Source: a virus
IMG/VR virus record: IMGVR_UViG_3300031951_000830
Coordinates: 1-30,877 of that record
Direction: 5' to 3' (one strand)
DNA length: 30,877 nt
Shown here: piece by piece, positions 10,496 through 24,921 of the stretch
Layout: the number at the start of each line of letters is the position of its first letter
Numbering within the stretch: position 1 is the first letter of the stretch
Position numbers and translations under genes: made by a program
Notes under the pieces: generated by a model
Databases searched by the model: none
Told to the model about the DNA's origin: nothing
What the model saw: only the letters and a program-made list of their open reading frames with translations

Positions 10496-10752
10496 TGACA
10501 CGACAAGACATAGAAGATAATTACCCAGACTCAGCACTCTTGCTACTAGAGGAGAAGTATTTTGACGAAGCTATCCTTGGGGTAGCCAGTCGAGTAAACA
10601 CTCCATGGGCTGTATGCTATGACGCTAATAAATGTATTGAGTTATTAGCCAAGCATGAGGGTATGACATTAGATGAAGCTGATGAATACTTCCACTACAA
10701 TACTGCAGGGGCATACGTTGGTGAGCATACCCCTGCATTTGTATATTACTAA
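10495..10752 (+). CDS. Conserved small phage protein (85 aa)
   Basis: 85 residues, acidic. It overlaps the stop of the giant virion gene by one base. The core YFDEAILGVASRVNTPWAVC then YDANKCIELLAKHEGMTLDE and FHYNTAGAYVGEHTPAF matches a small protein family that recurs in many phages, usually without a known role (pattern D-x-AI-GV-x-R, VxYD-x-xK, EA-x-E-x-x-x-FN-x-x-GA-x-x-GE-x-TP). Its stop overlaps that of nrdB on the opposite strand. It is the last gene of the late operon. Confidence 0.65.
   Translation: MTRQDIEDNYPDSALLLLEEKYFDEAILGVASRVNTPWAVCYDANKCIELLAKHEGMTLDEADEYFHYNTAGAYVGEHTPAFVYY
10704..10737. terminator. Candidate bidirectional terminator hairpin at the convergent junction
   Basis: An 8-bp GC-rich inverted repeat (TGCAGGGG / CCCCTGCA) with an 18-base loop lies inside the last plus-strand gene, just before its stop and that of nrdB. 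The plus side is followed by TTTGTATATT, a weak U-tract; the minus side has no good T-run. It is the only hairpin seen where two opposing transcripts must end. Terminator function is inferred. Confidence 0.35.
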
Positions 10753-11726
10753 GCTGCTAGTTTTTCCTCCGTAGTACCCCAACCCCAATCACCTTCCATG
10801 CCGGCTGCATTGTAGTCGGTTACTACGCCTTCAAAGAAGTTCTTGAGGCTATCCCCACTGATGACCCAGTCTAGCCACTCTAATGGGTTCTCTTTAACCT
10901 TCCAGTTACCCTTCAAGCCAAGCTGAATCAATCGTCTGTCAGCAATATAACGGATGTACTTCTTAACGTCAGCTGCAGTTAAGCCTTGGATCTCGCCCAT
11001 CTCAAATGCTGCATCGGTAACAGCATCCTCAAGTGCTACACCTTCTCTGAACATCTCATAGATGTCCTTCTTGAAATCGTCAGTCACAATACGTGGATGC
11101 TCATTGCAGAACTCACGGAACAGTTTAACCATTCCCTCGCAGTGCATACTCTCATCCCTCACGGACCACTCTACGATCTCGCACATACCTTTCATCTTAC
11201 CGAAACGCTGGTAGTTAAGGAGCATTGCAAAGGCTGAGAACAAAGACATGCCCTCATTCATAACTGATCTTGCAATAGCCTTAGCTAAACCGGCATGGCT
11301 ATTGGTATCAATCTGTGACATGAAGTCAATCTTCTCACTCATCTGCTTGTACTTTAAGAATGCCGAGTACTCTTCCTCTGGCAATCCAAGTGTGTCATTT
11401 AGTAATGCATAGCTACGCTGGTGCACGAACTCACGATTAGCAAAGCTAGTGAGCATGGCACGGATCTCATTGTTCTTAAACTTCTGCACATAATGCTCTA
11501 GATAATTCGTACCTACAGCAACATCACTCTGTGTAAATAATCTTAGGATTTGTGTGATGTGATTTTTCTCTTGTGGTGTTAGCTTACCACCTTGCCACTG
11601 TGCCAAGTCATCCTGCAACTTAGCTTCCCACTCACCCCAGTGGGCTTTCTCTGACTTGATGGCGTACTCAACAGCCCAAGGTGCAAAGAAAGGTTTATAG
11701 GAAACGCTGGGCGATATTAAACTCAT
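10749..11726 (-). CDS. nrdB: Ribonucleotide reductase class I, small (beta) subunit
   Basis: 325 residues. The subunit houses a dimetal centre and stores the radical used by NrdA to turn ribonucleotides into deoxyribonucleotides. Ferritin-like ligands line up as D68 (TQSD), E99 and H102 (REFVHQRSY), E158 (NEG), E192 and H195 (VRDESMH). The radical tyrosine of class Ia enzymes is present as Y106, spaced as in E. coli Y122 (H+4). The C-terminal tail ends GWGTTEEKLAA. A GGAG ribosome site lies 9 bases before the ATG. The gene is separated from nrdA by four other genes and has its own candidate promoter. Its stop overlaps the convergent late operon. Confidence 0.93.
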   Translation of the reverse strand: MSLISPSVSYKPFFAPWAVEYAIKSEKAHWGEWEAKLQDDLAQWQGGKLTPQEKNHITQILRLFTQSDVAVGTNYLEHYVQKFKNNEIRAMLTSFANREFVHQRSYALLNDTLGLPEEEYSAFLKYKQMSEKIDFMSQIDTNSHAGLAKAIARSVMNEGMSLFSAFAMLLNYQRFGKMKGMCEIVEWSVRDESMHCEGMVKLFREFCNEHPRIVTDDFKKDIYEMFREGVALEDAVTDAAFEMGEIQGLTAADVKKYIRYIADRRLIQLGLKGNWKVKENPLEWLDWVISGDSLKNFFEGVVTDYNAAGMEGDWGWGTTEEKLAA

Positions 11727-12470: not shown

Positions 12471-13034
12471 CTAGAGTATGTGGTCGGCAATATTTAATTC
12501 AACTAATTCTTTGGCAGTTAAAAATACATCACTTGCAGGTAACAGTTTTTGTTTTACTACTGTTGCTGACATGCCACTTGCATCACGTAAAATCTGTATC
12601 ATCTTCTGATTACAGATGTCTGCTTCTTTAACTGCAGATTTAAAGTCGTGATACTTACTATCGATGTTGTCTGAAAACTGGTGACACATAGCACTGGTAT
12701 TTACAGCAATGTATCTTTCTCCTTTGGTACCAGCACAGAAAATTAAGAATGCTGCACTCATAATAGAACCAACACCTACAGTGCGGATCGGATGACTGCT
12801 GTTCCGCATTACATCAATCAACGCAAAGGCTTGATATAGATCCCCACCACCAGAGTTAATGTAGATAGTTAAAGTCTTTTCTTTCTTATCTACATTCTCA
12901 TAGGTAAGCCACTTAATACACTTAGCTATATTGTCTGCTTCGATCTCATCATACAAATAGAATATGTGATTCTCTAACAGTACAATATCAATGCGATCTT
13001 CTGCTGTCTGATCGTCATGTTTCCTAGTTGCCAT
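12471..13034 (-). CDS. ClpP-like serine protease
   Basis: 187 residues, close to the ClpP subunit length. The fold signature is clear: TLTIYINSGGGDLYQAFALI (oxyanion-loop Gly run), IMSAAFLIFCAG with the nucleophile S93, NTSAMCHQ with H118, and LPASDVFLTAKELVELNIAD with D169. The full Ser-His-Asp triad is therefore present. ClpP degrades proteins fed by a host AAA+ unfoldase (ClpX/ClpA); no unfoldase gene is seen here. In phages such proteins are more often head-maturation proteases near capsid genes, but this one is embedded in the nucleotide-metabolism cluster, overlapping the nuclease upstream by 11 bases. Confidence 0.85.
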   Translation of the reverse strand: MATRKHDDQTAEDRIDIVLLENHIFYLYDEIEADNIAKCIKWLTYENVDKKEKTLTIYINSGGGDLYQAFALIDVMRNSSHPIRTVGVGSIMSAAFLIFCAGTKGERYIAVNTSAMCHQFSDNIDSKYHDFKSAVKEADICNQKMIQILRDASGMSATVVKQKLLPASDVFLTAKELVELNIADHIL

Positions 13035-13470
13035 TTGGTATCTCTACTATTGATATTAAATTAATGGGTACCTGAAAGAACATCTCACCTTTGTATACAT
13101 ATTTATTAGGCACCTCAACTACAGGCGATGATAGAAGTATACTGGATGGGCATAGGAATGCATGGGTAACTTCATTATTAAATACCATAAAGTATGCAGG
13201 CTTATCTAACTTAGCAAACTTAGACTTACGTTCTGGTATTTGTAATGTGTCATACTTAAATGTAGTACCTGACCATACTTTCTTAATCTCTACTTCACAA
13301 TAAAATGTTTCAGTTCCTGTATCCACAATTAAATCTACGGCATACCTATCAGGATGGTCCTCTACTGTATGCCCTAACGATTGCCAGTACAGTTTAGCTG
13401 CTGCTCTTGCAGAAGTATCTGTCTCATCAAATAGACTTTTACTAAACACCTTACGTGTTGAATTAGCCAT
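13024..13470 (-). CDS. PD-(D/E)XK-type nuclease-like protein
   Basis: 148 residues. The core reads YAVDLIVDTGTETFYCEVEI then K, giving D46...E61-x-K63, the spacing of a PD-(D/E)XK nuclease active site on two beta strands. A helix before it (SARAAAKLYWQSLGHTVED) fits the first alpha helix of that fold. The rest is beta-rich. It overlaps nrdA by 8 bases upstream and the ClpP-like gene by 11 downstream. Host DNA breakdown that feeds the reductase would fit the location, but this is inferred; a non-catalytic relative cannot be excluded. Confidence 0.6.
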   Translation of the reverse strand: MANSTRKVFSKSLFDETDTSARAAAKLYWQSLGHTVEDHPDRYAVDLIVDTGTETFYCEVEIKKVWSGTTFKYDTLQIPERKSKFAKLDKPAYFMVFNNEVTHAFLCPSSILLSSPVVEVPNKYVYKGEMFFQVPINLISIVEIPNGN

Positions 13471-15208
13471 GGCAGCTTATGCACTCCTCGGCATCTTTAA
13501 GGGCATCACGTTCTACCTTAAGACCTACCTTGTCGGCTTGCACACCTGCACTAGTACGTAAGTAATACAATCCTTTTAGTCCTGCCTTCCATGCACGTAA
13601 GTGTATTGCATTGACATACGACTTATTGCTACCTGCAGGAAAGAATAGATTGACAGATTGCCCTTGGCATATGTACTGCTGTCTATCCGATGCATGCTCA
13701 ACAACCCACGCTTGATCGAGTTCAAAGGCTGTCTTGAATACACTCTTCTCATCGTCCGTTAAGAATGGCAGGTGCTGTACAGAACCTTCATTCATAATGA
13801 TTGATGCCCACACTTCATCTTTGTTTTCGTGATGCTCGTCTAAGACTCTAGCCAAGCTATCACTCTTGACGAGATGCGAACCAGCCCTTGTACGATGCAC
13901 ATAAGCATTCGACTTAACAGGTTCAATACTTGGAGAGCAACCACAGATAATAGAACTATTGGCATTAGGAGCAATTGCAATAAGATGAGCATTCCGAACC
14001 CCAGACTTAACCATATCGGGTGCAGCCCCTCTCTCTTGGGCAAGTACTTTGGTCTCATGGGTTGCTTCCTCCTTCATGTGTTTGAACATATTGCGATTGA
14101 TTAACTTAGCTGCCACACTCTCAAATGACACACCTCTGTTCTGTAGATAACCATGGAATCCCATTGCACCTAGCCCTAAGCTACGCTCTTGCTGTGCACT
14201 GAATCGTGCCTTGGCAATATCATCAGGAGCATTGTCAATGAATACTTGCAATACATTATCTAAGAAACGAATGAGATCACGAACCATCTGTGTATCCTTC
14301 CACTCGTCAAACTTTTCTAAGTTCACACTAGACAGACAGCACACTGCAGTACGGTCTGGTGATGTAGCTAAATGAATCTCATTGCATAGATTACTGCCAT
14401 GAATTTTTAGACCCAAGTCTTTCTGTTCTTGTGGCAATCCTTTGTTAGCTGTATCAATGAAGTTAATGTAAGGACTTCCAGTACGGAACCGTGCCTCCAA
14501 GATACGTTGCCATAGATGACGGGCAGGTGTAGTCTCACGTACTACCCCGTTGGATGGGTCCTTTAACTCCCACTCTGTGCCATCAACTACTGCTTGCATA
14601 AATGCATCAGATACATTTACTGCATTAAATAAATTAAAACACTTGCGATTAATGTCACCACCAGTGGGCAACTTAAAATTAGTAAACTCGACAATATCGG
14701 GATGACTAACATCCAAGTACGCAGCATAGCTTCCTTTCCTAGTCTTGCCCTGCTTGTATGCAGTCATCTGACTATCTACTACTTTAAGAAATGGTATGGG
14801 TCCCGGTGCCTTATCACTGACACCCCTTACATCTGACCAGTGTCCACCCACCCCACCACCTTTAACTGACAGCCAAGCTACCTCAGCATTGTGGTTAATC
14901 AATTCGTCTAGGTTATCCCCTACGTAGGTAAGGAAACAGGATATGGGTAGTGCCTTGGGTTTCTCCCCGTATCTAGGTGCATTACTTAACACAGGACTAG
15001 CGTACATAAACCAGCCCTTAGAGGCGTAATCGTAGACCCGTTGGGCTAGACCTATATCCCCTGCAGAATAAGCCAATGCAGCCCTTGCAAACGCTTCCTG
15101 TGGGCTTCGTTCTTCGGTGAGTAGGTAGTAGTCCTGAAGCAGTTGCATTGCCTGCTCAGATAAACGACTATCCCTAGCTGTATCTACTATTATTCCATGG
15201 TAGTTCAT
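13463..15208 (-). CDS. nrdA: Ribonucleotide reductase class I, large (alpha) subunit, short form
   Basis: 581 residues, shorter than the about 760 of E. coli NrdA: the N-terminal ATP-cone is missing, so dATP overall-activity inhibition is probably absent. Catalytic residues are visible: C91 (SCFL) and C290 (CCLSSVNL) as the redox pair, N273-L-C275-N-E277 as the radical site, and the YY pair 548-549 (GLYYLRTS) that accepts the radical from NrdB. The C-terminus ends C576-I-S-C579, the thioredoxin/glutaredoxin-reduced arm. A phosphate-binding segment APNANSSIICG is present. It begins by overlapping a 59-aa gene (ATGA). Together with nrdB it supplies dNTPs. Confidence 0.95.
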   Translation of the reverse strand: MNYHGIIVDTARDSRLSEQAMQLLQDYYLLTEERSPQEAFARAALAYSAGDIGLAQRVYDYASKGWFMYASPVLSNAPRYGEKPKALPISCFLTYVGDNLDELINHNAEVAWLSVKGGGVGGHWSDVRGVSDKAPGPIPFLKVVDSQMTAYKQGKTRKGSYAAYLDVSHPDIVEFTNFKLPTGGDINRKCFNLFNAVNVSDAFMQAVVDGTEWELKDPSNGVVRETTPARHLWQRILEARFRTGSPYINFIDTANKGLPQEQKDLGLKIHGSNLCNEIHLATSPDRTAVCCLSSVNLEKFDEWKDTQMVRDLIRFLDNVLQVFIDNAPDDIAKARFSAQQERSLGLGAMGFHGYLQNRGVSFESVAAKLINRNMFKHMKEEATHETKVLAQERGAAPDMVKSGVRNAHLIAIAPNANSSIICGCSPSIEPVKSNAYVHRTRAGSHLVKSDSLARVLDEHHENKDEVWASIIMNEGSVQHLPFLTDDEKSVFKTAFELDQAWVVEHASDRQQYICQGQSVNLFFPAGSNKSYVNAIHLRAWKAGLKGLYYLRTSAGVQADKVGLKVERDALKDAEECISCHG

Positions 15209-16565: not shown

Positions 16566-17422
16566 TACTCTGTGTCTTTCTTAGCAATGTGTACATACGC
16601 TACCATTGGGGGATTCTCTGCTCGTGATACAAGAGATGGTCTCTCTTCTAATCCTTCCCAACATTTATATCTATAAGAACACCAACCACATTCCCTTCCG
16701 AGTACAAGGTTGCCTGTCTCTTTCTTGCGATAGGTTTCAGGTATAGCTTCATAGCATCGTTCAAACTCATTGTTCTTTAGTTTGTCTGCCTTCTCTTTAA
16801 TCTTCTGCACCTCTGCATCTAGATCAATCGTATCAGCAGCTACATACTTAAACTCACCATTCGCTTTATTGATTACCCACCAACCGCCTGCTTTAATATC
16901 CATTGCCTTAGCATAACCAGCTAGTTGTCCTACATATCCAAATGAATCATTGTCATGTAGGGTTTTGTAATCCACAAACTTATTGGCATAGGACCATGGG
17001 CTTGCAGACTTTACGTCATCGACTGCACCTTCAGTGACTAGGTCTGGTGTGCCATGAATCGTGTGATCACCAGCAACCAGAGTTACCTTATCCCCATTTG
17101 CATATGCCACACCTGCTTGAGTTAATAAACCTTTGAACACAGCCTCAGCTATGTCACCCATCATCATGTTGATTATGAAATTTGTAGAGTGAGGAACAGC
17201 ATCTTGTGGACTGTTCTTATCAAACCAAAGCTGACAGTAGTCACGCCCTACGTTTGACATTCGCAATGAGAAGTTGTTATCCCTCTTATCTACAAACTGC
17301 CGGAGTAAGGCAGCACGGACATCACTAACGACTTGTTCTACAACCTCCTCGCTAAGTGTACTATCGCCATGTCTGACCTTACTGAGATACTGGTGTATCT
17401 TTAACTCGGCAGGATGATGCAT
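16565..17422 (-). CDS. Cas4/RecB-like exonuclease with predicted Fe-S cluster
   Basis: 285 residues. PD-(D/E)XK core: MGDIAEAVFK (E93 region), HGTPDLV with D126, DDVK with D136-x-K138, and YVGQLAGY (Q166-x-x-x-Y170) as the RecB-type motif IV. One Cys near the N-terminus (C63, GRDYCQLW) and three near the C-terminus (C245-x-x-C248-x5-C254, RECGWCSYRYKCW) form the pattern that holds a 4Fe-4S cluster in Cas4 and AddB proteins. Such enzymes resect DNA ends; in phages they act in recombination or host DNA degradation. It abuts the candidate SSB gene and endonuclease I. No CRISPR array is nearby. Confidence 0.85.
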   Translation of the reverse strand: MHHPAELKIHQYLSKVRHGDSTLSEEVVEQVVSDVRAALLRQFVDKRDNNFSLRMSNVGRDYCQLWFDKNSPQDAVPHSTNFIINMMMGDIAEAVFKGLLTQAGVAYANGDKVTLVAGDHTIHGTPDLVTEGAVDDVKSASPWSYANKFVDYKTLHDNDSFGYVGQLAGYAKAMDIKAGGWWVINKANGEFKYVAADTIDLDAEVQKIKEKADKLKNNEFERCYEAIPETYRKKETGNLVLGRECGWCSYRYKCWEGLEERPSLVSRAENPPMVAYVHIAKKDTE

Positions 17423-18309
17423 TACTCTACCTCTACGTCAACAAACTCTTCAACAATTTCAGCAAGCTCTGCATCAGGCTGTGCCTTAACATTGTCATTG
17501 AACTCCTTGACGATGTAGTCATTGTAGTTATCAATCCACGCATTGAAGTCAGCAAACAATACCTGATCAGTATCAACTAGATCAATTGTCCAGCCGAGTT
17601 CTAATGTTGCTGTAGGTAAATAGTACGATGCACCTGTAGGTAAAGACTGCTCATCGGAACCTAGAGTAATTGAATGCTGTGGCAGAATACGATTCTGCTT
17701 AGCCATCTGTGCAATAGGAGCACCTAATGTTTTAAATGCATCCTTGTTATCTACTTCCCAAATGAATGGAACAGACTCAACATCACCGAGTTCTTCACCC
17801 TTTGCATTGACTGCACCTTTCATGGTCACCTGACCAAACAGTACACGTACACGCTTGATGGATTTCAACAGTGTCTTAGTCTCAGCAGGCAGTGCAGCGT
17901 AGTCTTCAATCCAACCACTTGGTTTACCACAGTTAAATCCACCTGCATTGTCACGTAAGTCTTCCTTCAAATCCTTAGCCATGATAGTCTTGACATACTT
18001 GCCTTTGCTATCACCACTGCCTTGGATGTAACGCTTGTACATGAAGCGTTGATTAAACAAACGGATAGATACATCCGATGCATACACTGGGTCAAGGTTA
18101 GGACGATCCAGTACGTAGCTACCTGCAGCTACAACTTCTACCTTCTTCTTCTTACCATTGACAGTGCTCTCGCCCATAATGCCCTTGTGATCCAACTTCA
18201 ATCGGGCTAGTGTGTTTTGTTTCTTAGGCACAGCAATATCTGCACCCATACCCATGGCTTGTGCCATTGCTGCAAAGTTACTATTGTTTACTAATGTAAG
18301 ATCTGACAT
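17422..18309 (-). CDS. Conserved phage protein, candidate ssDNA-binding protein
   Basis: 295 residues from ATG 18309, chosen because GAAAGG lies 5 bases before it; an ATG 48 bases upstream would run into the preceding gene and lacks such a site. The protein has basic patches (NGKKKKVEVVAAGSYV, RFMYKRYIQG), aromatic residues and mixed beta strands, then a long helix and a strongly acidic tail (DAELAEIVEEFVDVEVE). An acidic tail is typical of phage SSBs, which use it to recruit partners. It lies between polymerase and exonuclease, where T7-like phages keep the SSB. I do not recognise a named family; the SSB role is inferred. Confidence 0.5.
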   Translation of the reverse strand: MSDLTLVNNSNFAAMAQAMGMGADIAVPKKQNTLARLKLDHKGIMGESTVNGKKKKVEVVAAGSYVLDRPNLDPVYASDVSIRLFNQRFMYKRYIQGSGDSKGKYVKTIMAKDLKEDLRDNAGGFNCGKPSGWIEDYAALPAETKTLLKSIKRVRVLFGQVTMKGAVNAKGEELGDVESVPFIWEVDNKDAFKTLGAPIAQMAKQNRILPQHSITLGSDEQSLPTGASYYLPTATLELGWTIDLVDTDQVLFADFNAWIDNYNDYIVKEFNDNVKAQPDAELAEIVEEFVDVEVE

Positions 18310-18319
18310 GATTACCTTT

Positions 18320-18481
18320 CTATATTTGATATTTACTTCTGCTTGATTCTTGTGCATCGTAGCTTAGCCGGTACTTCTTAACCTTCTGTACTAGTTGATG
18401 CACATTACTACTTCTTTCTACGACAACGCCATCGATACTGAATGTGAATTGTTTGCCGTCATGTTTGTATTCGAGTTTCAT
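18320..18481 (-). CDS. Small hypothetical protein (53 aa)
   Basis: The real start is ATG 18481, which overlaps the DNA polymerase stop as ATGA and has GGAGG seven bases upstream; a longer frame to 18508 would run into the polymerase. The 53 residues (MKLEYKHDGKQFTFSIDGVV then VERSSNVHQLVQKVKKYRLS) suggest a beta hairpin followed by a basic helix. No known motif. Small basic proteins coupled to polymerase may act as accessory factors, but this is only suggested by position. Confidence 0.6.
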   Translation of the reverse strand: MKLEYKHDGKQFTFSIDGVVVERSSNVHQLVQKVKKYRLSYDAQESSRSKYQI

Positions 18482-20526
18482 TGGTGAACCTCCTTTTGCT
18501 CTAGCCAATTATCCCCTATCTTTGCTTCAAGTGCAAGGGGAACATTGAAATTTATACTCCATTTGTTATTAATCAAACCTACTAGATCTGCCTGTACTGA
18601 ATCGATTACATCCACTATCTGTTGGACCTCGTCAGGGTGTACGTCAATCACAATAGAATCGTGTACTGAATTAACCACACAGCTTTGGTATGATTTCAAT
18701 CTCTTGTAGATCTCTACCAGTGCCAAAGGTACGATGTCAGCAGTAGCAAAGGATTGAACTGGGTAGTTCTTGATGGCAGTAAAGTGTGTCACTGTGCCAT
18801 CCCTCTTACGCTTGACATCAGGGAATGAAAACTCCCTGTTGCTAGGGATTTTAATGTAGCCATAATTCAATGCTTGCTTAGCCAGTACACTGTGCCACCT
18901 TGCCACACCACTGTACTTCTCCATGAAGTGTGTGTAATAAGCAGCCTCAGATTGGGTACGACCATACCCAGTAGCACCATACAACGGGGCAAAGGTATGT
19001 GTCTTAGCTACCTGCCTAGATGTAGGCTGACCTGCATCCGTAATAACCTTAGCTGTGTACGAGTGCACATCAAACCCTTCCGATACTTCCTTCATGGCAA
19101 CTGGATCTTGGGATAGGAATGCAGCTACACGAAACTCTAGCTGTGCAAAGTCAGCTTCCATAATCTTGCCACCACCAAAGCGAGATACAAACACACGCTT
19201 AACTGGGAACGTACCACTCCTTGGCATGTTTTGCATATTAGGATTAGCCCCACTGAACCTACCAGTAGATGTGATGTGTTGATTCAATCTAACGTGTAGC
19301 ATTCCATCGGGTTTAATGAAGTCAGATATGCCACCTACAAAGTTATTCAGGTAGCTATCCAGTGCAGATAACCTACGCAACTTGCCTAAAAATTCAGCAG
19401 CATCATCCATACCCTTGGATGTAGCTACACGCTCTAGTGTCTCTAGATTATCTTTACCAGTACCAAAGCCATTGGCACTAGCCCACTTCACATTAGGTGC
19501 AGTGAACTTTAAACCTGCAACTTCTTTAGTTGGCTTGAACTCAAAGCCTACACCATTGCATGTACCACACTTAGTGGATTTCTTAAATGCATTACCATCC
19601 TTCTTAGTCCGGTGGAAGAACCCTTTACCACTACAGCTATGGCACTTCTCTGCCCGTGTCTTGTACACCATATCAAAGTGTCGCTTAACTGCATCCTTAA
19701 ACTCAGTGTCTTTCATGTAGGGTGTGATGGCTGTAGCCCATGCATCTTTACTCCTTGGCTTACGACTGTATATGATCCACGATAACTGCTCTGGACTATT
19801 GAGATTGATTGGGGTATCACCCATCAACTTACGTACATGCTCTTGCAATAGCTTCTCAGTCTGTGCCTTCTCATTCTCAAACTCTACACGCACCTTATCC
19901 AGTGCATCTAGATCAACTCGTATGCCTGTCTGATATATCCGTGCCAATACAATGCACACCTCATTGGACATCTCTATCGTACTAGCTAAGCCCTGATCCT
20001 GTGGTGTCTGCAACTTACGCTGTATAGATTTGTAGATACCTTCAGTCGCACCCAAGTCATGCTCAAGATACATACTCAACTCTGCATGTGGGATATCACG
20101 AGTGCTGTACCCACGCTTGAAGTATTCCTTCATCGTGTCTTGCTTTAGTACCTCGCAGTTATGCCGGATAGCTACGGTGCCTAGGTCTAGTGGCATCTTA
20201 ATACCACGCTGCAATACGTAGTCACCTAGCATGGTATCGAATACTTTACCATCGTACTTAAAGCCAGACTCCCAGAGCCACACTAAATCGTGACTGATAT
20301 TGTGCCCAATTAAAAGTGTAGTCTTGTCTAGTAACTTCTGTACTGCAGTATGATTAGCCGGCACATCTTCTTGTACATCTGTGTGATCGAATGTATATAC
20401 TTGGCATGGCTCATCCAAGGGTTTGCATCCAACCATCACGAGAGTATTGCCAGTCTCGAATGGGTCTAAGTGCTTACGTCCATCCCGATTACTAACTGTG
20501 TTCTCCACGTCAAGGGTTAGTATCAT
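18478..20526 (-). CDS. DNA polymerase, family A, with embedded DnaJ-type zinc finger
   Basis: 682 residues. The 3'-5' exonuclease domain has Exo I D6-V-E8, Exo II GHNISHD (N76, D80) and Exo III YLEHD (D157). The polymerase domain has motif A MEADFAQLEFRV (D459), motif B RQVAKTHTFAPLYG (R504, K508, F512, Y516) and motif C VHDS (D623). F512 is the E. coli Phe762 position. Motif C has Ser after Asp instead of the usual Glu. Between them lie two CxxCxGxG repeats (C295-C298 and C320-C323), a zinc finger like the centre of DnaJ. This insertion is known from SAR116 phage HMO-2011. The start overlaps the HNH gene end by 17 bases. Confidence 0.93.
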   Translation of the reverse strand: MILTLDVENTVSNRDGRKHLDPFETGNTLVMVGCKPLDEPCQVYTFDHTDVQEDVPANHTAVQKLLDKTTLLIGHNISHDLVWLWESGFKYDGKVFDTMLGDYVLQRGIKMPLDLGTVAIRHNCEVLKQDTMKEYFKRGYSTRDIPHAELSMYLEHDLGATEGIYKSIQRKLQTPQDQGLASTIEMSNEVCIVLARIYQTGIRVDLDALDKVRVEFENEKAQTEKLLQEHVRKLMGDTPINLNSPEQLSWIIYSRKPRSKDAWATAITPYMKDTEFKDAVKRHFDMVYKTRAEKCHSCSGKGFFHRTKKDGNAFKKSTKCGTCNGVGFEFKPTKEVAGLKFTAPNVKWASANGFGTGKDNLETLERVATSKGMDDAAEFLGKLRRLSALDSYLNNFVGGISDFIKPDGMLHVRLNQHITSTGRFSGANPNMQNMPRSGTFPVKRVFVSRFGGGKIMEADFAQLEFRVAAFLSQDPVAMKEVSEGFDVHSYTAKVITDAGQPTSRQVAKTHTFAPLYGATGYGRTQSEAAYYTHFMEKYSGVARWHSVLAKQALNYGYIKIPSNREFSFPDVKRKRDGTVTHFTAIKNYPVQSFATADIVPLALVEIYKRLKSYQSCVVNSVHDSIVIDVHPDEVQQIVDVIDSVQADLVGLINNKWSINFNVPLALEAKIGDNWLEQKEVHQ

Positions 20527-21031
20527 TTAATTTCTTCCTAAGATTATTAACTAACATTTCAAGCTGATCAATCGAGGCATCACTTTTAATTGTATTTGCC
20601 TTGTGAGAGATAACCCACACGTTACCTTTAACATAACCAAGATTAGAATCAATCCTATCTACAGATGGTGAACCATCACACAAATACCCAATCCCAAGCT
20701 CAAATGATATGCCTAGTAGGGGACACACTTCAGGTATCACGATGTCTTCCTTATCTAAGTTAAAGTCAAGACCTTTTAACTTTGCCCTAGATTTGCAGTT
20801 CCAATAAAGCTTAACAGCTGGGTTATTTTTATTGTAAGCATTCCTGTAAGCTGCTTTTTTTTTCATATATTCGGGATCTTTTTTTATCCCCAATGTACGT
20901 TCTTTCGTAGCCTTACATGAGTAGCAAGTCCTCTCCACGTATCTCTTAACCTCTCCTGTTTTAAGTCGAGCTTTAGATTTAGGAAACTTACTTTCATCTT
21001 TTTCTTGATTGCATACATGACAAGTTTTCAT
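20510..21031 (-). CDS. HNH endonuclease, probably a free-standing homing type
   Basis: 173 residues. An N-terminal zinc site (C4-x-x-C7 and C36-x-x-C39) precedes a basic linker and an HNH-like domain: PEVCPLLGISFE, SPSVDRIDSNLGYVKGNV, WVISHKANTIKSDAS. The S-x-DRIDS-x-x-GY-x-x-GN phrase with later H/N residues marks a family of phage HNH endonucleases. A strong ribosome site AAGGAGG lies 8 bases before the ATG and a near-consensus promoter just upstream. Local sequence is more A/T-rich (long T runs at 20866-20890) than its neighbours, which fits recent arrival. Its end runs 17 bases into the polymerase gene. Confidence 0.85.
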   Translation of the reverse strand: MKTCHVCNQEKDESKFPKSKARLKTGEVKRYVERTCYSCKATKERTLGIKKDPEYMKKKAAYRNAYNKNNPAVKLYWNCKSRAKLKGLDFNLDKEDIVIPEVCPLLGISFELGIGYLCDGSPSVDRIDSNLGYVKGNVWVISHKANTIKSDASIDQLEMLVNNLRKKLNDTNP

Positions 21032-23784: not shown

Positions 23785-24019
23785 GATGTGCCTCGATTGC
23801 TCTAACGAATTGTACTACCCCAGCATGAGTATTAATGTATACATCTAAGGAGTCTAAGATTCTATCTAGTTCGTCCTCAGTCATAGGCTTTCTACCCAGT
23901 GCTTGAGTAATCTTATCTGCTAATGACTGTTCATCTAAATCTTTAGCTATCTTACGTGCTCTATCAAAGAACTCTTTTGTATCTTCCATATCATTCCTTA
24001 CGTTAGTCATAACACTCAT
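23771..24019 (-). CDS. Small protein with PLT-x-EE / FARAIE-type module (82 aa)
   Basis: 82 residues. The C-terminal half reads KPMTEDELDRIL then VVQFVRAIEAHHGIK, a short helical module that recurs in small phage proteins and also in two other genes in this window (25431-25646 and 26069-26305). The N-terminal half is a helix-rich region (EFFDRARKIAKDLDE). It starts as ATGA over the recombinase stop. Function unknown; it is soluble, with no enzyme motif. Confidence 0.6.
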   Translation of the reverse strand: MSVMTNVRNDMEDTKEFFDRARKIAKDLDEQSLADKITQALGRKPMTEDELDRILDSLDVYINTHAGVVQFVRAIEAHHGIK

Positions 24020-24921
24020 ACTGTATCACCTGCCGTGTTAAAGCGGAGCTTAGCAGCATTTCTTGCACTTGTCAAGGTATTTTTCATGTAGGGTTTTACT
24101 GACTGGGGATTAGCGTGACCAGTAACTGCCATGATCTGGGGCATGGATACACCGGCATCAATCATCTCGACTGTGCCTGTCCTACGCATGTCCATAATCT
24201 GGTACTCCGTGGGTAACCCTGCTGCACGGATGATGCTCCTGCCTAATGCGGATAGTGCCTTCCTATCATACGGCTTGGCTATGATCCTATTGTCCTTACA
24301 GTAAGGTGCGATGTACTGCTGAAAGTCTACGTCAGCTTTCTGCTGTACCAACATCTCATGTAACTCATCCGTAGTGGGTAGTTCTACCCTAGCCCTACGC
24401 TTAGATTGTTGCAGGTACAATACTCTCTTATCAAAATCGTAGTTATCCCATGTCAGATTAGCCATATCACCTAGCCTCTGACACCACTCGTATGCCATCT
24501 GCACAATAAGACCCACGCTACGCCATCTAAAACGGCTGTAGGCTGTGTCCAAGAACAACTTGATATCCTCCCTCGTCCACACCACTTTGCGTGGCGTATG
24601 CCTGCGTTTAGATACCTTGCTGAACGGATTTATCTGGGCATACCCTAGCTGTATCGCATAGTTGTACAGCTTACTGACTACAGCATGGGTATGGTTGGCA
24701 TATGGGACACCCCTTTCTGCCCATTTATTGTATGCAGTCTGGGCATTGGGGGTATCAATTGAATCGATATACATCTTGGATATATCCCTACTACGTACAT
24801 GGGTACTTAGGAATGTCTGGATGCAATAGCGATAGTCTCTTTGGGTGGTTGGTGAGAGAACCCGATAGTCTAAGGATTGGTAGTACTCATCAATCACAGC
24901 TACCAGTTTCTTCTTAGCCAT
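24016..24921 (-). CDS. int: Tyrosine recombinase / integrase
   Basis: 301 residues. N-terminal core-binding domain (about 1-105) has the SAM-like helical look (SPTTQRDYRYCIQTFL, AVVSKLYNYAIQLGY). Catalytic residues: R149 (WCQRLGDM), K174 (QSKRR), R246 (MDMRRT), H269 (VTGHANPQS) and nucleophile Y278 (VKPYM). The first His of the usual H-x-x-R motif is replaced by Met243. Such enzymes join phage and host attachment sites. AAAAGGAGG precedes the ATG. No attachment site or excisionase was recognised, so lysogeny is possible but unproven. Confidence 0.88.
   Translation of the reverse strand: MAKKKLVAVIDEYYQSLDYRVLSPTTQRDYRYCIQTFLSTHVRSRDISKMYIDSIDTPNAQTAYNKWAERGVPYANHTHAVVSKLYNYAIQLGYAQINPFSKVSKRRHTPRKVVWTREDIKLFLDTAYSRFRWRSVGLIVQMAYEWCQRLGDMANLTWDNYDFDKRVLYLQQSKRRARVELPTTDELHEMLVQQKADVDFQQYIAPYCKDNRIIAKPYDRKALSALGRSIIRAAGLPTEYQIMDMRRTGTVEMIDAGVSMPQIMAVTGHANPQSVKPYMKNTLTSARNAAKLRFNTAGDTV

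Follow-up and report, generated by a model that had tools for sequence, protein, structure and literature searches.

The family A DNA polymerase encoded in the window (the whole stretch of DNA analysed, a virus record of 30,877 bases) carries a four-cysteine finger at the tip of a thumb insertion. We give about an even chance to the reading that this finger, stiffened by zinc, forms a basic tip of the thumb with which the polymerase grips the primer-template and so becomes more processive. The placement of the finger, its conservation, its charge and its restriction to a single clade are supported directly, and its fold class weakly; zinc occupancy, contact with DNA and the effect on processivity we infer. 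The fusion of polymerase and finger is itself already known, since the record of the HMO-2011 polymerase labels a DnaJ_CXXCXGXG motif and a partial DnaJ domain is a published diagnostic criterion of HMO-2011-type polymerases (PMC9038755). The window thus provides a further polymerase of this type, and what is refined here is the position of the finger, the identity of its zinc centre, its charge and its likely role. According to PMC9038755, HMO-2011-type phages are widespread in the ocean and dominant there. In the literature on the finger, we found no functional test or biochemistry, in agreement with the original prediction, which had treated its function as open.

Table 1. Positions of the polymerase gene, its thumb features and nearby genes in the window.
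Feature	Position	Strand	Basis
Family A DNA polymerase gene P0001, 682 aa, with proofreading exonuclease	18478..20526	-	ORF, Pfam, conserved motifs
Thumb insertion, residues 254-357, between helices H1 (245-253) and H2 (358-370)	19456..19767	-	AF2 model, motif spacing, Klenow alignment
Strands within residues 284-294, first side of beta-stalk	19645..19677	-	model secondary structure
Putative zinc knuckle with basic hairpin, residues 295-327 (C295, C298, C320, C323)	19546..19644	-	motifs, alignment, charge, structure matches
Strand, residues 328-336, second side of beta-stalk	19519..19545	-	model secondary structure
Conserved gene following the polymerase; its product ends in an acidic tail and is a candidate single-strand binding protein that may partner the tip	17422..18357	-	tail charge, position
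HNH/endonuclease VII-like gene (PHROG 3322, 1035)	20510-21031	-	
Class I ribonucleotide reductase, small and large chain	10749-11726 and 13463-15208	-	
ClpP-type protease gene	12471-13034	-	

The polymerase belongs to the HMO-2011 lineage

The polymerase ORF is a single unbroken frame with its ATG at 20526 and its stop at 18478, that is, on the minus strand, which the original prediction had left unstated. Pfam matches to DNA_pol_A (8.9e-53) and a 3'-5' exonuclease (9e-5) were obtained. In an alignment of 49 sequences, the exonuclease motifs (D6/E8, N76/D80 and Y153/D157) and polymerase motifs A (D459), B (R504/K508/F512/Y516) and C (H622/D623) are conserved. The intact 682-aa frame, the Pfam matches and the motifs together identify a complete family A polymerase with a 3'-5' exonuclease at the coordinates first proposed. 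F512 places a Phe in motif B at the Pol I 762 position, and a tyrosine integrase is encoded at 24016-24921. The polymerases of Zobellviridae (MEP402, Saratov-15) and of an Alcaligenes phage (L085, L189 and L191) each come as two ORFs, with the split near motif A. A small ORF lies between the two halves in MEP402, and an ORF lies inside the polymerase gene of ICP2.

The closest annotated match to the window polymerase is that of Puniceispirillum phage HMO-2011 (62.5% identity), followed by Roseobacter phages CRP-1, -345, -2, -603 and -207 (53-60%), Pelagibacter phage HTVC033P (42%) and CRP-3, -212, -235 and -738 (36-37%). HMO-2011, CRP-1/2/3 and HTVC033P, at 36-63% identity, share with the window the domain order, the two CxxCxGxG motifs and the gene neighbourhood; a partial DnaJ domain with two such motifs, the feature used to define the type (PMC9038755), is present in the window protein. 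In a 64-row tree, 58 polymerases with the zinc motif, including that of the window, fall on one side of a branch with support of 99/95, and the window polymerase groups with those of HMO-2011 and the CRP phages. The remaining six rows are outgroup polymerases without the motif; their branches are long and the exact sister is unsure. Every HMO-2011-type polymerase examined retains the finger, across divergence down to ~35% identity, and a single-sequence search with the insert gave significant matches confined to HMO-2011-type polymerases in phage records. The tree and the full retention are consistent with one acquisition and zero losses. Both the kinship to HMO-2011 and the use of the finger as a lineage mark, as originally predicted, are therefore borne out by identity, tree and shared motifs, and no close relative without the insertion, which would have spoken against that prediction, was found.

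The genome scan returned mostly phage contigs binned in metagenome-assembled genomes (MAGs) of several phyla. The same HMO-2011-type phage contigs (L216/L217 and L220/L221) occur in two MAGs that are assigned to different phyla, Flavobacteriales TMED123 and Neomarinimicrobiota MED589, and the host can therefore not be read from the bins.

Four invariant cysteines

The two CxxCxGxG motifs are located at C295/C298 and C320/C323, exactly where they had been noticed. The polymerase holds nine cysteines, and none of 20,000 residue shuffles yielded two such motifs; together with their conservation, this rules out a chance origin of the pair. Of the homologues of near-full length, drawn from viral contigs and from named phages, 172 of 173 contain the paired CxxC, the sole exception being the outgroup polymerase of Caulobacter phage Lullwater (L192), and the pairs are separated by 21 residues in 170 of the 173. 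In two polymerases (L178 and L179), the hairpin between the pairs is 12 residues longer and likewise lysine-rich. All four cysteines, A292, G300, G311, G327, A337 and G338 are invariant in the 49-sequence alignment, while K308 and K309 are conserved in at least 90% of the sequences. The four invariant cysteines suggest that the finger binds zinc.

The finger caps an insertion in the H1-H2 loop of the thumb

An AlphaFold2 model built with the 49 sequences had a mean pLDDT of 91.3 and a pTM of 0.84. As a whole, the model is similar to the Bst, Taq and Klenow polymerases (VIA-align Z ~31-33). Foldseek with the whole polymerase returned polymerases only among the best rows listed and is uninformative for the fold of the insert. 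The thumb helices in the model, named by helix order and by the NLNSPEQL motif, are H (206-235), H1 (245-253), H2 (358-370) and I (374-403). The distance from the NLxS motif to H2 is 119 residues in the window protein, 40 in StenR_269 and 32 in T7. Since H1 and H2 of T7 polymerase span 339-348 and 365-372 (PMC9198812), this spacing places the window insertion in the H1-H2 loop; the T7 mapping uses the published helix numbers and motif spacing, the MAFFT alignment having put the T7 thumb wrongly. In addition, the family profile aligns to Klenow through window residue 256 (chain residue ~271-272) and then breaks off. The published Klenow thumb-tip deletion, residues 590-613, would presumably fall in the same loop.

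In the model, the two sides of a beta-stalk are capped at the tip by the knuckle with the four cysteines (Table 1). The finger had been placed between the exonuclease and polymerase domains, an arrangement that only the Pfam borders suggest; it lies within the polymerase thumb. As for the expectation that the cysteines come together in a structure model, the zinc-site region is predicted with good confidence, and the check, as far as it was run, gave no sign that they are kept apart.

The thioredoxin-binding domain of T7 gp5 is likewise a thumb insertion in a phage replicative family A polymerase. However, it has no zinc and is located between helices H and H1, whereas the window insertion lies between H1 and H2, and this difference in loop position rules out homology of the two. 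We take the T7 domain to span residues 258-333; the T7 FNPSS motif, at 334, follows just after this range.

Related sister phage polymerases carry different, cysteine-poor, non-zinc inserts in the same H1-H2 loop. Their presence could be read to mean that the zinc merely stabilises an enlarged thumb loop that makes no contact of its own, and zinc knuckles often act as small scaffolds. We regard such a structural brace as doubtful, since K308 and K309 are conserved and no loss of the finger is seen over the range of identities given above.

The finger resembles half of the DnaJ central domain

Pfam DnaJ_CXXCXGXG (PF00684) matched the polymerase at 1.8e-4 with 22.2 bits and the isolated fragment with 27.6 bits, in both cases below the gathering cut-off of 32.7 bits. 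Profile HMMs place the finger on DnaJ motifs 2-3, and the same motifs are covered by the best solved-structure match by sequence, E. coli DnaJ 1exk (E 0.0014). With E values up to 1, the sequence matches of the insert to solved structures were DnaJ, lambda Q and anti-TRAP, all weak. Folded alone, the insert (pLDDT 84.1) was nearest to DNAJA2 (7zhs; Foldseek probability 0.99, rmsd 2.6 over 39 columns, E 0.11), with BSD2, lambda Q with DNA, UvrA (rmsd 2.0 over 36) and anti-TRAP as further neighbours. None of these had E <0.1, and VIA-align of the insert against its structure neighbours gave Z of just 2.1-2.6.

DnaJ has four CxxCxGxG motifs and two zinc centres, of which motifs 2 and 3 form centre II. 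The polymerase shares the motif type and may share a zinc hairpin like that of motifs 2-3, but has two motifs and one putative centre, no J domain, a strongly basic loop and a location embedded in the thumb. Judged by its motifs, the finger is half of the DnaJ central domain, with one zinc centre matching centre II. The DnaJ-like motif of the original prediction is supported, with the correction that half of the central domain is present. According to Linke 2003, as cited in PMC4428491, DnaJ requires centre I to bind substrate and centre II to interact with DnaK. The accompanying statement that the zinc centre binds unfolded protein therefore points to the wrong centre, as the substrate-binding centre I is missing in the polymerase.

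The match to motifs 2-3, the centre reported in that citation for DnaK interaction (PMC4428491), might mean that the finger imitates DnaJ or brings in the host DnaK, in the manner of lambda replication initiation. We set this role aside as a leading idea and consider it very unlikely. The N-terminal J domain with HPD that marks type I DnaJ/Hsp40 proteins is absent: no J domain (PF00226) was found in the polymerase, the window record or five relatives, some of them incomplete, and the single HPD, at residue 630, belongs to the polymerase motif C region. Centre I is missing, the charge of the finger is unlike that of DnaJ, and long ORFs that we read as UvrA from their length and sequence score 21.6-23.2 bits with this Pfam model, as weakly as the polymerase does. 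The Pfam name is thus no argument for a chaperone role. Nor is the single-zinc fold confined to chaperones: the UvrA zinc module and the finger of the lambda antiterminator Q are likewise single-zinc DnaJ-like hairpins inside DNA-working proteins, although the UvrA loop is acidic, the sequence kinship is weak or undetected and the proteins that carry the hairpins are unrelated. Weak thiol-reductase activity has been mentioned for the DnaJ zinc domain in PMC4428491, and a redox or zinc switch, in which cysteine oxidation would set polymerase activity, can be imagined on this basis; we hold it to be extremely improbable.

Among predicted viral structures, many small free-standing proteins have a similar hairpin (high probabilities, best E 0.013) and form a plausible donor pool for the finger. 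We tentatively entertain, as possible though not the likelier outcome, that the finger acts by itself, with zinc, as a processivity element, and that it was captured once from such a free-standing single-zinc phage protein and put in a thumb loop other than that used by T7 for thioredoxin.

A basic loop that may grip DNA

The loop between the cysteine pairs has a net charge of +4 to +8 (mean +5.4) in HMO-2011-type polymerases. This charge averages the 98th percentile of equal-length windows in the same polymerase, the whole protein being approximately neutral. In eight genomes searched with the same Pfam model, UvrA loops have charges of -2 to -4 and DnaJ loops of -1 to +4, the latter being approximate since most were measured from motif 1. 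Conservation of K308, K309 and G311 supports a grip on DNA, as the zinc fold itself needs no lysines.

We propose that one zinc held by C295, C298, C320 and C323 would lock the end of the two-stranded stalk. Between the cysteine pairs, the loop KxKK[D/N]Gx[P]F, rich in lysine, would then face and clamp the primer-template duplex, and DNA affinity and processivity would be raised without a partner such as thioredoxin. In T7 polymerase, crosslinks to nucleic acid have been mapped to peptides of H1, 6c, 6d and H2 (PMC9198812). For Pol theta and Pol nu, insert 1 at the thumb tip has been linked to processivity and DNA binding; in plant organellar polymerases, a lysine-rich insert 1 of the thumb has been linked to the rate of polymerisation as well as to the binding of DNA (PMC9962433, PMC7699545, PMC13365964). 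By analogy with these cases, the zinc tip most likely clamps the primer-template. The inserts are likewise thumb insertions near DNA; however, no zinc is described in them, and their origin is unrelated to that of the polymerase finger.

Searches of the window and of five relatives, some of whose records are fragments, gave neither a thioredoxin nor a PCNA-family sliding clamp; a host thioredoxin could still serve as the polymerase partner. Going by the title of Croteau 2006, as listed in PMC7835731, the C-terminal zinc finger of UvrA regulates DNA binding with no direct binding, which speaks against a grip on DNA, and the basic surface could just as well bind the acidic tails of proteins.

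Such binding underlies the main rival reading, in which the basic zinc tip docks onto acidic tails of phage replication proteins, foremost that of the neighbour encoded after the polymerase, and couples the polymerase to an SSB or primase-helicase. The protein encoded by the next gene has ~275-311 aa, and its last 20 residues have a mean net charge of -7.3 over 131 loci and -8 in the window. The tail is like the acidic one of T7 gp2.5. To judge by the entry for Hamdan 2005 listed in PMC9198812, the polymerase of T7 has a unique loop to which the primase-helicase, SSB and processivity factor bind. On the other hand, acidic tails are common, and the neighbour has no significant Pfam match and no recognised SSB domain, its SSB role being suggested by position and tail. 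We consider docking possible but rather unlikely.

The defined thumb loop, the one zinc centre and the conserved basic loop indicate specific residues to mutate, namely, the four cysteines, K308 and K309. In the neighbour, a long-unexplained mark of these polymerases gains a named candidate partner gene.

Neighbouring genes

The HNH/endonuclease VII-like gene lies between the helicase and polymerase genes and overlaps the polymerase start by 17 bases. Of the loci compared, L001, L004 and the window alone have this gene, whereas the helicase abuts the polymerase in L002, L003 and HMO-2011. The junction of helicase and polymerase is a hot spot for insertions: it contains a C5 cytosine methylase in L017 (1428-3000) and other ORFs in L010 (2064-2994), L011 (1698-2869) and L019 (2391-3000). 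The 155-aa ORF of L019 looks similar, by eye, to window positions 13024-13470.

The window also differs from HMO-2011 in its ribonucleotide reductase, which is of class I, while the HMO-2011 counterpart is a class II, adenosylcobalamin-dependent enzyme. The ClpP-type protease gene is located among the nucleotide-metabolism genes.
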